A program made the position numbers and the translations under genes. Of a DNA stretch of 51,040 nucleotides, positions 2,377-11,756 are shown piece by piece. The notes under the pieces are model-generated. The model saw only the letters and a list, made by a program, of their open reading frames with translations, searched no databases and had not been told where the DNA came from. The stretch lies in contig CAIJVD010000007.1 in NCBI GenBank assembly GCA_903824045.1, positions 1-51,040 on the forward strand. Direction: 5' to 3'. This DNA comes from an uncultured Chlorobiaceae bacterium. GTDB taxonomy: Bacteria; Bacteroidota; Chlorobiia; Chlorobiales; Chlorobiaceae. The stretch's first letter is position 1. Every line of letters begins with the position of its first letter.

Positions 2377-3025
2377 GTTTTCGTCGCTACCCGTTTACCC
2401 AAGGAACCACCCGGCAAGGCGTTCTGTAATATTGATCAAGAGAAGCTCGCTCATTGTGGCTTGATAAGGTTATTCGCACCGGTTCGCGGTATCAACAAAA
2501 CATTATATCGCAATACGTTGATACTCCTGCCCGACTCTCAGCAAAAACATCTGTCAAGATAGTGTTGTTTTCCGAACCTTCAAAAACAGGGGGGACGGTG
2601 AGGATGGGCGAGCAGGGATCGGGGCACTTGCAACACTATCGATGAGTCAAGATTTTTAGGAAAATTCCCGACAGATCGGGGAGAAAGATTCTTTTGTAGA
2701 AGATTCAGCCAATAAGCTCTCCCCAGCTCTTATAATCGGTTTATTATTAACCCAATGAAGAAGTGTTTGTTGAGTGTTACGCTGCGGAGCTATTTTTAAT
2801 GGAGTTTGCAGTATAGTTGACAGGTTGTAAACTGTATTTTATTATAATGATGCACTCAAGTCTCCGAAAAAAAAGAAATATATCGCATAAGTTACTTTTA
2901 TTAAATCAATTAATAGTTATTAGTCTGGTTCAGAATTTATGTGTTACATGGGTTTTGTATTCAAAAAACTGCGAGTTAAATGGTTCAACAAACGCCTTGT
3001 TAAGCAGAGAGTGAAAAATGAAGTA
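2377..3025. other. Intergenic stretch without a recognisable gene
   Basis: I see no supported gene in about 650 bp. The stretch becomes AT-rich after 2700. It contains one member of the short palindrome family, TCCCGACAGATCGGGGA at 2666-2682. The short open frames here (62-65 codons) lack ribosome sites and family features. Confidence 0.5.
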
Positions 3026-3061
3026 TTGACTTATAGTCCACATTTGATTATTTTAAAACTT
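3026..3061 (+). promoter_or_regulatory. Methyltransferase promoter overlapped by a C-box operator; leaderless mRNA predicted
   Basis: TTGACT (3026-3031) and TATTTT (3049-3054) are separated by 17 bp and form a sigma-70-type promoter. Its predicted start falls on, or within a base or two of, the ATG at 3062, so the transcript should be leaderless; there is indeed no ribosome site. GACTTATAGTC (3028-3038) is a perfect C-box (GACT-N3-AGTC) overlapping the -35 element. Bound controller protein would be expected to repress the methyltransferase once enough has accumulated. Confidence 0.75.
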
Positions 3062-3916
3062 ATGAGCACACAAGATTTTATAAAAACTCTCGGTACTCCA
3101 TATTACGAATCAGAGTCAGTGATTATCTATAACTCTGATTGTAGAGATGGTATTAACAGACTGAAGAACTCAGACTTAGCTATTGATTGTACGATTACTA
3201 GCCCTCCATATAATATTGGAAAAGAGTACGAAGAAATTATTGGACTTGTAGAATATCGGGATTGGCTTTCAAATATCGTTAACAGCATTTATGACATAAC
3301 TTCGGATTCTGGTGCGTTTCTTTTAAATGTTGGGTATGTTGATGTGCCGCAAAAAGGAAAAGCAGTTCCGATTACATATCTACTGTGGGAACATATTGAT
3401 TTTTATCTTCAGCAAGAGATAATTTGGAACTACGGTGCAGGTGTGGCCTGCAAAAAAATGTTGTCACCGCGAAATGAAAAAATTCTTTGGTATCTTAAAA
3501 ACGCTTCTGAGTATACTTTTAATCTTGATGAAATCAGAGATTCTGATGTAAAATATCCCAACCAAAAGAAAAACGGAAAACTCAGGTGCAATACACTTGG
3601 GAAAAACCCATCTGATGTCTGGCAAATAGCAAAGGTTACATCAGGAGACAATAGGGCTTCAGCAGAAAGGACTGATCATCCGGCGCAATTCCCAACAGAT
3701 CTTATTGATAGGCTAGTAAAAGGCTTTACAAATAAGAATGACATAGTGTTAGACCCGTTCATGGGTTCAGGTACGACCGCAGTTAGTTGCATAAATAATG
3801 GTCGTAAATGTATTGGATTTGAAATAAGACCTGATTATTGCGAGATAATTAAATGGCGTCTCGAGCGAACTTATCAAGTAAAAAAACAAGAGGAAAATGT
3901 TTTATCTCTATTTTGA
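3062..3916 (+). CDS. Type II restriction-modification system DNA methyltransferase (probably N4-cytosine)
   Basis: It transfers a methyl group from S-adenosylmethionine to the system's recognition site, protecting host DNA. In the 284-residue protein counted from 3062, TSPPYN (46-51) is the catalytic motif IV, in the SPPY form usual for N4-cytosine enzymes. DPFMGSGTT, about 50 residues from the C-terminus, is the AdoMet-binding motif I. The order IV before I marks the beta class. The frame is open from an ATG at 2939, but I chose 3062 because promoter and C-box lie directly before it. The gene is convergent with the endonuclease and overlaps its 3' end by 9 bp. N6-adenine methylation is the alternative. 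Confidence 0.88.
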   Translation: MSTQDFIKTLGTPYYESESVIIYNSDCRDGINRLKNSDLAIDCTITSPPYNIGKEYEEIIGLVEYRDWLSNIVNSIYDITSDSGAFLLNVGYVDVPQKGKAVPITYLLWEHIDFYLQQEIIWNYGAGVACKKMLSPRNEKILWYLKNASEYTFNLDEIRDSDVKYPNQKKNGKLRCNTLGKNPSDVWQIAKVTSGDNRASAERTDHPAQFPTDLIDRLVKGFTNKNDIVLDPFMGSGTTAVSCINNGRKCIGFEIRPDYCEIIKWRLERTYQVKKQEENVLSLF

Positions 3917-4495
3917 GTACAATGTGATAAATTTCAAACTATATGTTTCAGGAGATAATCGTGCTTGTTGACCAGTTGAAGCAGATTGAGCAATCCAGTC
4001 GGAATGTTCGATATAACCAAATTTTATAGCGGTAATATTCGGTTTTGGGTTTTTTTCTGTTGGCTTTTCAAAGTTTACTGTTATGAAATAACCGTCTTTG
4101 TTTTTTCTTTGCCCTTCCGTTGCAGGTTGTGCGTAACTACGGTTTGCAAAAATCTGGGATTTGTTTGAAGATGCTTTTATTTCTACGGAGAAATCTTCAT
4201 CAGTAACACAATGAATATCTTTTTCAGTCTTGTTTTTCCCGACACGAAAAATCTTTGGGTATTTGATATTGAAATTGTGAGCAACTAGTTCATGCAAAAA
4301 AAAGCTGATAATTTGTGGTGCTGGAAATATTTCTTTCCCAATTTGGAATGGACCGATATGTGAAGTAAATATTGCCTCCCAAGACATACGTACAACTGAT
4401 ACTACTTCTTCTTTTGAAAAAGGGTGTTTTTTTATGAGTGCCTCTGTGATTTTTTTCCATTCAGACTTTGATTTACCTGCATACGGAGAGTTCAT
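3908..4495 (-). CDS. Type II restriction endonuclease, ScaI-like family
   Basis: A 195-residue protein in the endonuclease position: directly after the controller gene (ATGA overlap at 4492-4495) and tail-to-tail with the methyltransferase. A PD-(D/E)XK-type core is visible as DEDFSVEIKAS in mid-protein, followed by SQIFANRSYAQ and near the end HSDWIAQSASTGQQARLS. From memory of the family these blocks match ScaI-type enzymes, which cut AGTACT; this specificity is a guess without an alignment. Translation is probably coupled to the upstream controller gene. Codon use is AT-rich compared with the core genes further right, in keeping with horizontal acquisition. Confidence 0.7.
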   Translation of the reverse strand: MNSPYAGKSKSEWKKITEALIKKHPFSKEEVVSVVRMSWEAIFTSHIGPFQIGKEIFPAPQIISFFLHELVAHNFNIKYPKIFRVGKNKTEKDIHCVTDEDFSVEIKASSNKSQIFANRSYAQPATEGQRKNKDGYFITVNFEKPTEKNPKPNITAIKFGYIEHSDWIAQSASTGQQARLSPETYSLKFITLYSK

Positions 4496-4737
4496 TCTTT
4501 TTCCTCGATGTTGATTAAAAGCTTATTTAAAAAGGCTTTATTGGTTAGCCCTAGCCCTTTAATTACTTTTTCAAGTGAGTTTACTGTAAGATTTCGAGCA
4601 AGTCGCTCAACGCCAGATATATACGTTCTGTCTAAATCTGAATTTTCTGCAAGTTTTTCTTGGCTCAATCCAATAGAGACACGCTCATCTTTTATTGTCT
4701 TGGCTACAGCAAGTAACAGTTTAGTTGTGCTTTCCAT
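4492..4737 (-). CDS. Controller (C) protein of the restriction-modification system, XRE-type
   Basis: An 81-residue helix-turn-helix regulator of the size of known C proteins. GLSQEKLAENSDLDRTYISG (residues 23-42) is the DNA-binding helix-turn-helix, followed by VERLARNLTVNSLEKVIKGL. The pattern is close to C.Esp1396I as I remember it. In such systems the dimer first activates its own operon from a left site, delaying the endonuclease until methylation is done, and represses from the right site at high level. Both sites can be read upstream (4746-4787), and a further C-box sits on the methyltransferase promoter. The gene overlaps the endonuclease start by 4 bp and has no ribosome site, which fits a leaderless transcript. 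Confidence 0.9.
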   Translation of the reverse strand: MESTTKLLLAVAKTIKDERVSIGLSQEKLAENSDLDRTYISGVERLARNLTVNSLEKVIKGLGLTNKAFLNKLLINIEEKE

Positions 4738-4745
4738 AATTCGTA

Positions 4746-4787
4746 ATTATACGCAAAGGTAGACTATCAGACCACGGACTATAAGTC
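4746..4787 (-). promoter_or_regulatory. Paired C-box operator and leaderless promoter of the controller-endonuclease operon
   Basis: Read on the minus strand: GACTTATAGTC (4787-4777), CGTG, then GTCTGATAGTC (4772-4762), and the -10 box TATAAT (4751-4746). The first box is a perfect C-box and the second an imperfect one. Their centres are 15 bp apart, and the second overlaps the expected -35 position (4774-4769), as in known activator/repressor C-box pairs. The -10 box ends 8 nt before the ATG at 4737, so transcription should start at or next to the start codon. Confidence 0.8.
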
Positions 4788-5173
4788 ACTACTGAGTTGA
4801 TGCCGATATCCATGCAAGAATAGCCGAGCTACGCAGGTTCTCTTGACATTTATCGAAAATGCGCTGTTTGTCTTTTAAGGGTAATGTCGATGTGAAAATT
4901 ACAATTCTTTAAACTTTCATCCGCAGTTCAGTCTTTCAGCACTATTCGGTTACCCTGCATGTCGAGTATAGGATTATGGATTGATGATGCCCCGACAATT
5001 CTCTTACCTGCTTTTATTTTGTTTATTTATGACGGAAAAATCTGTAGCTTTACAGTATTATATTGCGGTACTGTTTTCACTGAAGAGTAGATCATTTGTG
5101 ACGGGTTGTCAGGCATGTATTATTTGGATTACCATTCAAAAATCTTCGGTTTAGGCGGATCAATCTAATTATT
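4788..5173. other. Intergenic stretch without a recognisable gene
   Basis: About 390 bp between the restriction operon promoter and the attC-like core at 5174. I find no open frame with a ribosome site, no repeat shared with the rest of the window, and no left half of an attC site to match the core. Confidence 0.4.
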
Positions 5174-5180
5174 GTTAGCC
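5174..5180 (+). other. Lone attC core site (GTTAGCC)
   Basis: GTTAGCC fits the integron core GTTRRRY and lies 2 nt before the ATG of the protease cassette, as expected of a cassette junction. No matching left box was found within 130 bp upstream, so the preceding attC appears truncated, perhaps by the event that brought in the restriction-modification DNA. A 7-bp match can also be chance. Confidence 0.45.
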
Positions 5181-5182
5181 CT

Positions 5183-5842
5183 ATGAAGGCAATCAAATCT
5201 GCCATGCCGGTATTGATCGAAACCGGGTACGACGAGTGGCCATACGCGGTACGCGGCACTTTCTTTGTGGCAGACGTCGCGGGTGCCATGTACGTTGTTA
5301 CCGCGCGGCATGTGGTTGAGGGTAATAGCGCAACTTCAGTCTTCTTTCGCTACCGCAGTGGCTCTCGGTATAGCTTGCCGTTAGATCAAACAGTAATCGT
5401 CAAAGAATATGCTGGCCCTGAAAGCCCTGAGTACACCGATGTAATCCTCTACCGCATCGCAGTCGATGAAATATCAGAGCCCTTCGTCAATGCAAAATTG
5501 GATACTGAAAGAAGGCCTTGGAGCCTCCTCACAAAAGGTGATTCAATAATTTTTCGAGGCTATCCTTCGGAGCTTCAAGGTGCGGAGGCTAGCGGCCTCA
5601 AGGAGCAGGGTGTCGTCATGGACGCAAAGTACAGCGGCCTCGGTACTCACCCTGGCTGTCATGAGATTGAGTTGTTCCCATCGGAGCTGTTCACGTTTCA
5701 TGACGGCTTCAGCGGCTCACCAGTTTTTCTATTCAAGGACGGCAAAACTCAGCTGGTTGGCTTGCTGGTAAAGGCAAACTCTTATCAAAGCAGGGCTCTG
5801 TTTGTAGATGGGTCAGTTATTCATGCATTGGCGTCGGGCTAA
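5183..5842 (+). CDS. Trypsin-like serine protease, cytoplasmic (integron cassette)
   Basis: A 219-residue protein with the chymotrypsin-fold triad in order: His43 in VVTARHVVEG, Asp86 in EYTDVILYRI, and Ser177 in DGFSGSPVF, where GFSGSP matches the usual GDSGGP. There is no signal peptide or membrane segment, so it should act in the cytoplasm, unlike DegP/HtrA enzymes; it also lacks a PDZ domain. Stand-alone trypsin-like domains of this kind occur in bacterial immune systems as effectors activated by a partner; that role is inference. The gene starts 2 nt after a core site and its TAA (5840-5842) lies within attC3, so it is a compact cassette. A 63-codon frame inside it is a shadow. Confidence 0.85.
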   Translation: MKAIKSAMPVLIETGYDEWPYAVRGTFFVADVAGAMYVVTARHVVEGNSATSVFFRYRSGSRYSLPLDQTVIVKEYAGPESPEYTDVILYRIAVDEISEPFVNAKLDTERRPWSLLTKGDSIIFRGYPSELQGAEASGLKEQGVVMDAKYSGLGTHPGCHEIELFPSELFTFHDGFSGSPVFLFKDGKTQLVGLLVKANSYQSRALFVDGSVIHALASG

Positions 5843-5914
5843 CAAGAGCATCAAGCCGACGACCACGCCTCCGCTTCGCAACGGTACTGCTGCGGCTTAT
5901 GTTCGGCGTTATCC
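5837..5914 (+). other. Integron attC site 3
   Basis: A 78-bp site bounded by GGCTAAC (5837-5843) and core GTTATCC (5908-5914). Internally AAGCCGACG (5853-5861) pairs with CGGCTT (5893-5898), with an unpaired base and a GC-rich stem. The protease stop codon overlaps the left box. The core differs from those of attC1 and attC2, which is normal between unrelated cassettes. Confidence 0.8.
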
Positions 5915-7387: not shown

Positions 7388-7891
7388 TGACTGAAGCAAT
7401 TCGCTTCGGATGTACTGAAGGGGCGGACGGTATTCATTTCATTCAGTTCATGCTTTGAGGGGGTGCTGGAAATTTTGAGCGCGCCGATGAAAACCAGCAG
7501 AGAGTAGGGTATGCAAGTTACTCACATGAAAGGCACAACCACCCTTCACACCCCGAGTCATGCCTCGATAGCCAGCAATGGAATGGGGAAGCGTTGACAG
7601 GGGAAAGCGCAGGTTCCCTATTGATCTTCAACCGCCAGACCGCTGTCCATAAATCCCAATAACTCCATTCAAAACAGTCCGTTATCCGCTATTTCAACAC
7701 CGAGGGGACGTTCGTAACAAACTCTACTTGTTTCCCACAGTTCAGCTTCAGAATTTGCTTCCGGTGGTTATTGATCTCTCCCCCCAGTTTCATTCTTAGC
7801 GATATCCATACCGTTTCCGTAATTTATTTCTGCTGGCGATGGTTCACGATCTCTTGCGAAAGATCGGTGGCCTGATTTCGAAACTTAAGAA
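7388..7891. other. Non-coding stretch with the left flanking repeat
   Basis: About 500 bp without a supported gene. Positions 7480-7730 are the left copy of a direct repeat whose right copy is at 9375-9610. The last 160 bp before the next gene show nothing I can name. Confidence 0.5.
7480..7730 (+). repeat. Direct repeat A, left copy (about 235 bp plus target-like tail)
   Basis: Begins GCGCCGATGAAAACCAG (7481) and shares long near-identical runs with 9375-9610, including CCGAGTCATGCCTCGATA, CAGCAATGGAATGGGGAAGC and CAATAACTCCATTCAAAACA. It ends CGAGGGGACGTTCG followed by TAACAAACTCTACTTG. The first 140 bp also match the 5' part of the group II intron at 9612, so the repeat probably derives from an intron end plus flanking DNA. 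Confidence 0.75.
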
Positions 7892-9374: not shown

Positions 9375-9610
9375 AGCGCCGATAAAAACTGGTAGAAAGT
9401 AGAATATGCAAGTTACTCACATGAAAAGCATAGCCAGCCATCATAGCCCCGAGTCATGCCTCGATATCCAGCAATGGAATGGGGAAGCGTTGACAGGGGA
9501 AAACACAGGCGTCCTATTGAGTTCCAACCGCCAGACCGCTGTTCCTAAACCCCAATAACTCCATTCAAAACAGCCCGTTATCCGCTTTTTCAACAACGAG
9601 GGGACGTTCG
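9375..9610 (+). repeat. Direct repeat A, right copy
   Basis: The right partner of 7480-7714, about 1.9 kb away in the same orientation. It also ends CGAGGGGACGTTCG (9598-9610). Here the end is followed by GAAAGCGCCGATTAAAACCG, the presumed 5' part of the group II intron, instead of TAACAAACTCTACTTG. Confidence 0.75.
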
Positions 9611-9957
9611 GAAAGCGCCGATTAAAACCGGTAGAAAGTAAAGAATGCAAGAGTCTTATATGAAAGGTTTAGCCAGCCATCATAGCCCCGAGTCAAGCCT
9701 CGATCGTCAGCAATGCGATGGTGAAAAGCGTTGACAGGGGAAAGCGCAGGCGCTGTAATGAGTTCCGAAATTACCCCAATCCGTAGGCATACCTTATTGA
9801 ACGAAAGGGAAAGCAACACTGACCGTACTGTTATGGCGAGGTATGGTTGGCTACGGCGGAATTAAAGACCAGCAGCATGTGTGGACGCTTTCTACACGGG
9901 AATCGGGAGACCCGGCAAGCTCCCTGGCCAAAGGCAAAAGGCAGGAGGGTAGTATCA

Positions 9958-11482
9958 ATGAAGGAGAGAACCCGAAGAATTGATGCAGAAGCGAACCGGG
10001 AGTCGGACGGTGTAATAGTACCCGAGAAGGAGCCGAACAGAGAAACCCCTGTTTCGACGGAGGCTGTGGAGGTAAGGACACCGGCCAGGAGGAACGCCGG
10101 AGAAGAACCCAGCAGCCGGATACAGAGCCGGAACATGGTGTCGTTCGGACTCGAAGGCGTGCGAACACGAGCCAAAACTGATCCCGACTCGTCGGGACTG
10201 CTTTACTGCACTGCTGCACCACATCACTCCTGAACTGCTCCGCCAAAGCTTTTATGAGCTGAATCGTAAAGCAGCGCCGGGAATCGACGGTGTGACATGG
10301 CAGGGTTACGAAGAGCGGCTTGAAGAACGCCTGCCGACCCTGCACACAGAAATCCACAAAGGCAGCTATCGAGCAAAACCGGTACTGAGGACGTATATCC
10401 CGAAAGCCGATGGTCATAAACGCCCTCTGGGCATAACGGCCATAGAAGACAAGCTTGTCCAACAAGCCGTAGTCAATGTGCTGACGGTGATATATGAAAC
10501 AGAATTCTATGGATTCTCCTACGGATACCGGCCCGGTCGAAGCCAGCACGGAGCGCTGGATGCCTTGGCAACAGCCATTCTGACGAAGCGCATTAACTGG
10601 ATACTGGATGCAGACCTGCAAGGATTCTTTGACAGCATACCGCATGAACGCCTGCTCGAATTCATCAGAAAACGAGTTGGAGACAAACGGATACTGCGCC
10701 TGATCAGCAAATGGCTGAAGACGGGATACAGCGAAGACGGACGCATCTATCGGCAAACAGTAGGCACACCACAGGGGTCGGTGATTTCGCCGCTGCTGGC
10801 CAACATCTATCTTCATTACGCACTGGACGAATGGGTGGAAAATGAACGACGAACCCGTCCAAACGGGGAAGTCATCATTGTGAGATACGCCGATGATATG
10901 GTATTGGGCTTCCAGTACAAGAACGAGGCGGAACGATATCTTGCAGCCCTGAAAGAACAGTTGTCCGGTTACGGCTTGACACTGCACCCTGAGAAAACCC
11001 GTCTGAAAGAGTTCGGTCGATATGCCGCAGAAGGACGGAAGAAACGGGGAGAGGGAAAACCGGAAGGATTTGATTTTCTGGGGTTTACACACCTGTGCAG
11101 CAAGAACCGGAAAGGAGGCTACTTTCTGAGACGGAAGACCATAAGCAAACGACTGCGCCAAACGATACGGGAAGTCAAGGATGCCCTCAGGATGAGGATG
11201 CACGCACCCATAAAAGAGACAGGAATCTGGCTGAAAAGTGTTGTGCTGGGTTACGGGCAATACTTTGGCGTACCGGGAAACATCAAGGCCCTGAAAAGCT
11301 TCAGAGACCTTGTGGCCAAAGCGTGGTACTGGAGCCTGAGGCGCCGTAGCCAGAAAGGAACAGCTATGACCTGGCAACGATTTACGCCCATCGTAGATGC
11401 TTATCTCCCGCGCCTCCGACTATGCCACGACTTCCCGGAGGTACGATTCGCCATCACTCAAGGCAGGAGCCGTATGCGGTAG
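9958..11482 (+). pseudogene. ltrA: Group II intron reverse transcriptase/maturase (LtrA type), frameshifted
   Basis: It would copy the intron RNA and assist its splicing. ATG 9958 with ribosome site GGAGGG starts MKERTRRIDAEANRESDG, and that frame runs to about 10180. From there the protein continues in the next frame with FTALLHHITPELLRQSFYEL, AAPGIDGVTW, the catalytic YADD, GTPQGSVISPLLANIYL and an intact maturase region to 11482. The break coincides exactly with a 16-bp palindrome (10182-10197); removing it rejoins the frames as AKTDCFTALLHH. A GTG at 10292 leaves a 396-residue frame, but this lacks the N-terminal RT0 region, so activity is unlikely. A sequencing error is unlikely given the palindrome. 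Confidence 0.85.
10182..10197. repeat. 16-bp palindrome inserted in the reverse transcriptase gene
   Basis: TCCCGACTCGTCGGGA is a perfect 7-bp inverted repeat around TC. It is one of three related palindromes in the accessory region. Deleting exactly these bases restores the reading frame from ACTGA to CTGCTTT. Confidence 0.75.
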
Positions 11483-11500
11483 TTCCGCACGTACGGATCT
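11467..11500 (+). ncRNA. Group II intron domain V
   Basis: A 34-nt hairpin beginning GAGCCGTATGCGG, with loop TAGT and a return strand CCGCACGTACGGATCT. The usual family sequence has CGGUUCU at the end; here it is CGGATCT, which places an A opposite the G of the catalytic AGC triad. Confidence 0.75.
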
Positions 11501-11756
11501 GTGCGGGGGGTGCCGGGTAACAGGCATCCCTACCGCGACTGAAAACATCGACTTGTGAGCGTAACTCAATATTAGGTCTTTAAATCTCTATGGTTTGCTT
11601 CACAGAACGTCGAGGCACCGATTGGTGAGTGTGCCATCGAAATAGTTATCAGGAAGCGTTAAAATGCCTGAGGGTGGGCACGTTGTTCAATAGCTGCAAT
11701 AGCGAGGAGATACCAAGAGGCGGATGTGCGAGAAATAGCTGCAGTTTGAGGTTAGT

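Follow-up and report, generated by a model that had tools for sequence, protein, structure and literature searches.

What kind of control governs the three genes at 3026-4787 of this contig, and how would it order the production of a methyltransferase and the endonuclease that it protects against? The window, by which we mean the whole 51,040-nucleotide stretch analysed, is contig 7 of a 37-contig, 2.09-Mb (2,085,430-base) genome. An earlier note, made from the letters of the DNA, had seen here a complete controller-regulated type II restriction-modification (R-M) system in what appeared to be a green sulfur bacterium. The host is confirmed by an FMO protein (E 3.9e-220). The system is also complete: the layout is that of Esp1396I, and all three open reading frames are intact and full length, M running rightward and C and R leftward, so that they converge.

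3062-3916, forward strand: M, DNA methyltransferase, 284 aa
4737-4492, reverse strand: C, controller protein, HTH, 81 aa
4495-3908, reverse strand: R, ScaI-family restriction endonuclease, 195 aa

The three genes match the PADLOC models Control_protein, REase_II and MTase_II. C lies directly upstream of R in the same orientation, with the C stop and R start overlapping as ATGA, and the R-side pair overlaps the end of M by 9 bp. We consider it very probable (roughly 87%) that this is a horizontally acquired, complete type II R-M system with Esp1396I-like regulation, in which controller binding, timing, leaderless starts, specificity and activity are predictions from the sequence.

The enzymes themselves belong to well-defined families. 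R matches RE_ScaI (PF09569) over the whole profile (1-192 of 192; 7.7e-74; 248 bits vs a cut-off of 25), which bears out the proposal of a ScaI-like endonuclease. D93, E105 and K107 (D-x11-E-x-K) are invariant in five homologues and, by their PD-(D/E)xK pattern, are candidate catalytic residues. An AlphaFold model of R built from a two-sequence alignment (pLDDT 43) was too poor to confirm the nuclease motif. M matches N6_N4_Mtase (PF01555; 4.3e-53), and its motifs TSPPY (46-50) and DPFMGSGTT (231-239) are invariant or nearly so in five homologues. It is probably an N4-cytosine methyltransferase. The ScaI R-M system (AGTACT) falls in the same Pfam family as R, and a common specificity is suggested by that family membership alone. 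The target is thus most probably AGTACT, protected by N4-methylcytosine, to judge solely from the family name. AGTACT shows no special depletion, its 225 sites in 2.09 Mb lying within the range for the genus, and long-term restriction at AGTACT therefore leaves no trace. For the same reason site avoidance was rejected as a proof of specificity; the site count speaks neither for nor against cleavage at AGTACT. We also rejected the idea that R shares its specificity with the C-associated Sbo13I/NruI enzymes, as PMC2890505 does not connect those enzymes with the ScaI family.

The regulatory sequences lie in and around the two promoters.

3026-3054, forward strand: M promoter, -35 TTGACT (3026-3031), 17-bp spacer, -10 TATTTT (3049-3054)
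3028-3038, forward strand: O_M, single operator GACTTATAGTC with flank GTCCACA, over the -35 box of the M promoter
4777-4787, reverse strand: O_L, distal operator GACTTATAGTC, then CGTG as in Esp1396I; predicted activation site
4762-4772, reverse strand: O_R, proximal imperfect operator GTCTGATAGTC, over the C/R -35 region; predicted repression site
4774-4769 and 4751-4746, reverse strand: C/R promoter, with a poor -35-like TGGTCT and a perfect -10 TATAAT
4506-4501, reverse strand: Shine-Dalgarno (SD)-like GAGGAA of R, inside the end of C and 5 nt before the R ATG

All three boxes had been noted earlier, the one at 4777-4787 as the exact reverse complement of that at 3028-3038 and the one at 4762-4772 as imperfect, and all three are where they were placed. 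O_L and O_R thus stand in tandem before C and R (the whole site reads GTGACTTATAGTCCGTGGTCTGATAGTCTACC), with O_R over the core promoter and the centre of O_L about 45 bp upstream of the predicted C/R transcription start, while the single O_M covers the core promoter of the convergent M gene. The exact 11-mer GACTTATAGTC has two copies in the whole 2,085,430-base genome, one at each promoter. When the 18 bases around each copy are read towards its gene, 17 are identical. None of 300 dinucleotide-shuffled pairs of upstream regions reached this match, the maximum being 15. Once mismatches are allowed the operator motif occurs in the window at chance frequency only, so the significance of the operators lies in their exact identity, placement and conservation rather than in counts.

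The predicted reader of these boxes is C, an HTH_3 protein whose best solved relative is C.Esp1396I (structure match, 5.5e-15; about 48-50% identity). Mutation or structure has identified R35, T36, Y37, R46 and S52 of C.Esp1396I as DNA-contact residues (PMC4041747), and in the alignment these correspond to R37, T38, Y39, R48 and S54 of the window protein. The operators agree as well. Esp1396I, from plasmid pEsp1396 of Enterobacter sp. RFL1396, has convergent C-R and M genes and three operators. Its O_L core and flank GTGACTTATAGTCCGTG are identical to those of the window, its C/R site (L010) reads GTGACTTATAGTCCGTGTGATTATAGTCAACA, and the distance from the end of O_R to the -10 box is 10 nt in both. 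The oligonucleotides described in PMC3758141 carry the same operator core. The two systems differ in their enzymes, as the Esp1396I endonuclease is of the BstXI family and its methyltransferase is dissimilar to M. They differ too at the M promoter: O_M of Esp1396I lies downstream of the best-scoring predicted M -10 (TAGAAT), whereas O_M of the window lies over the -35 box. There is a precedent for a C protein that represses through the -35 of an M promoter in Kpn2I (PMC6237814). The AhdI methyltransferase acts as its own repressor in place of C (PMC11736437), and both AhdI and PvuII differ from the window system in their C-protein and endonuclease families.

By analogy with the circuit logic of Esp1396I (PMC4041747, PMC6337176), the system would work as follows. 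In a newly entered cell no C would yet sit on the M promoter, and methyltransferase would be made at once. C and R would initially appear only in small amounts, since a good -10 combined with a poor -35 gives their promoter a low basal activity. Once C had built up, its dimers on O_L would bring RNA polymerase to the C/R promoter, giving positive feedback and a delayed appearance of R. Dimers on O_M would cover the M -35 box and repress M, and at higher levels of C a second dimer on the weaker O_R would shut the C/R promoter. The C and M mRNAs would begin at their start codons, and R would be translated from an SD-led start overlapping the C stop. The binding of C to O_M, O_L and O_R, with its effects on the promoters, is predicted from these likenesses.

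A locus from another phylum can be set beside this one. The Bacillota metagenome-assembled genome SKS3.bin19 (JAJZSC010000358.1, L003) carries a direct orthologue, with R 76%, M 77% and C 71% identical. Its flanking genes are unrelated to those of the window, but it has the same convergent gene order, all three operators and the same promoter-to-ATG geometry, and its M has the start and the length (284 aa) of the window M. O_L is exact and O_R reads GACAGATAGTC. O_M, kept as GACATATAGTCTACA, appears as GACATATAGTC, overlapping a consensus TTGACA. The M promoter of the orthologue (TTGACA-17-TATATT) is closer to consensus than that of the window, and its -10 stands 6 nt before the ATG, as does that of C. 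That the same regulatory geometry is found in two phyla is the best evidence for functional operators and for leaderless starts.

Might the HTH protein act on the C/R promoter alone, and the box before M be incidental? E. coli plasmid systems of the ScaI family, which have no recognisable box before M, would fit this. Here, though, the box is an exact copy, one of the two in the genome, and it sits over the -35. It is also kept in the Bacillota orthologue, where it carries the flank TATAGTCNACA of the Esp1396I O_M. We regard an incidental box as highly improbable, and prefer to treat all three operators as parts of one control system.

The other relatives of the ScaI family are regulated less uniformly. 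The E. coli plasmids NZ_CP104531.1 and NZ_CP063352.1 share the arrangement of C-R convergent with M, and their enzymes are recognisably similar (R 46%, M 59-61% identical). Their C is only 38% identical and belongs to another branch of the tree, the C boxes before C are degenerate, and M is preceded by an SD sequence and another open reading frame, with no recognisable O_M. A further relative, from the phylum Bacteroidota, lacks GACT boxes and its C is divergent, and a third has no adjacent C gene. As these relatives differ in C gene and boxes, control is variable within the ScaI enzyme family. In a small C-protein tree the window and Bacillota proteins group with Esp1396I-type C and apart from C of the E. 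coli ScaI-family plasmids (97/99), which, with 80 columns and long branches, is moderate evidence. The enzymes, unlike the C proteins, group by ScaI family, while in Esp1396I and its plasmid relatives the same controller type is paired with BstXI-family endonucleases. The controller and operators therefore look exchangeable between enzyme lineages.

We turn to where the messages begin. The earlier claim that both -10 boxes set transcription starts at or next to the start codons stands as geometry. The M -10 box ends 7 nt before ATG 3062, with the predicted start at the A of that ATG, although TATTTT fits the consensus at four of six positions and is not strong. The C -10 box lies 8 nt before ATG 4737, and the predicted start is at the ATG or at most 2 nt away. 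It had also been claimed that both genes lack ribosome sites. As an observation this is correct, M and C having no SD-like sequence, but as an argument for leaderless messages it does not survive a control with the host's own genes: an SD-like tetramer is present in only 3 of the 21 other genes of the window. Its absence is normal in this host and so gives weak support to leaderlessness, and we rejected it as a proof.

The same control lends something to another explanation, in which genes and operators are genuine while the transcripts have leaders, whether short or long, and the host simply makes no use of SD sequences; 18 of the 21 other window genes lack one. In Esp1396I the C start codon stands about 30 nt beyond the position equivalent to the -10; as it is further downstream than here, C of Esp1396I is not leaderless by the geometry of the window. 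The spacing argues the other way. For M and C it measures 7 and 8 nt in the window and 6 nt each in the Bacillota orthologue, and in an E. coli ScaI-family plasmid the value for C is 7 nt. The C transcripts of AhdI and PvuII are leaderless by experiment (PMC5333194, PMC2997769). Leadered transcripts thus seem unlikely. The prediction of leaderless transcripts for M and C is a good one, because the Bacillota orthologue keeps the three operators together with the -10-to-ATG spacing. R does carry an SD-like site, on which the earlier note was silent. For the C/R operon we predict one message on which C is leaderless and R SD-led; GAGG-type sites also precede R in L003 and in locus L006. A leaderless C transcript is not in itself new, as C-dependent examples have been demonstrated experimentally for AhdI and PvuII. 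What is, modestly, unusual is the combination of Esp1396I-type three-operator control, a ScaI-family enzyme, and M and C that are both predicted to be leaderless.

The R-M block seems foreign to its host. Its GC content is 36%, whereas the core genes on its right have 52-55%. The endonuclease was absent from all 60 relatives searched, and the locus is rare, occurring in 2 of 394 genomes of the phylum. The system was likely acquired horizontally, and recently. Among the viral contigs and phage records searched there were no relatives of R, and the operator string was not found in the viral contigs searched.

Its position is informative. The block lies between an attC-like site (ending at 2222) and a copy of the serB 5' region on one side and an attI-like element on the other.

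2424-2594, forward strand: copy of the serB 5' region, 171 bp, 96% identical, flanking the R-M block
5117-5177, forward strand: attI-like element, 61 bp, 92% identical to the element that immediately follows the integron integrase gene of this genome

In the intact platform, found on contig C8 of the same genome (33299-36051) and in several congeneric genomes (G002, G014 and G022), the integron integrase gene (identified by TIGR02249) lies between the serB 5' region and the attI-like element. The R-M block occupies the place where the integrase gene would be expected. Our claim is limited to that, because the attI-like element, of about 60 bp and with 1-11 copies per genome in the genus (L044-L058), often occurs with no integrase nearby, beside unrelated or housekeeping genes.

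Several other features were seen on the contig. Sites resembling attC at 1090-1179, 2136-2222 and 5837-5914 (GCATAAC...GTTATGC; GGCTAAC...GTTATCC) bound small open reading frames. The attC scan was non-specific, shuffled windows giving as many hits; it is the layout, together with the integrase, that suggests that the left end of the contig holds an array of integron cassettes. We considered whether the R-M genes form a single integron cassette and rejected this, as no attC-like site directly follows them. A trypsin-like open reading frame (5183-5842), which comes directly after the attI-like element, weakly matches the PADLOC LmuA model; in another genome of the genus (L045) the start of this reading frame again stands behind an attI-like element. 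An open reading frame at 233-1072 (280 aa) matches the PADLOC TIR-effector model weakly (E 9.9e-8). Further to the right are group II intron matches at 9409-11539 and 7514-7642 (Rfam RF02005, RF00029), with a reverse-transcriptase-like open reading frame (10292-11482); upstream lie two more intron copies, both partial and of the 5' part. An inverted repeat of 151 bp (88%) is present at both contig ends (72-222 and 50890-51040) and is probably the end of an insertion sequence at which the assembly broke.

One could go further and suppose that a second, duplicated integron platform (serB copy, R-M block, attI-like element, cassette) lost its integrase gene to the R-M block, which now anchors the adjacent cassette array. 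We think this very unlikely. If true, a leaderless, C-timed R-M system would be a self-stabilising anchor for a cassette array in green sulfur bacteria.

The same surroundings bear on whether the system still works. It could be intact in sequence but silent or decaying, a recent relic at a disrupted integron platform that no longer restricts. The undepleted AGTACT sites, the 60 relatives without the system, the atypical GC content and an insertion adjoining duplicated serB and attI-like sequence all suit such a history. Set against this are three full-length open reading frames with conserved motifs, and operators and promoters shared with another phylum, implying that function has been under selection. 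A silent relic is in our view quite unlikely, and an intact C-controlled system is the reading that we retain.

The locus adds a good example to a known type of system and is no surprise. It shows the regulatory module of Esp1396I, C with its three operators, recurring almost unchanged in two other phyla with another family of endonuclease, which favours the idea that controller/operator cassettes and enzyme genes are swapped as modules. The locus also offers a clean natural comparison of how the position of the M operator, over the -35 or downstream of the -10, and a leaderless C affect timing. As a rare and likely recent acquisition, the locus could serve as a marker of genetic barriers in green sulfur bacteria.
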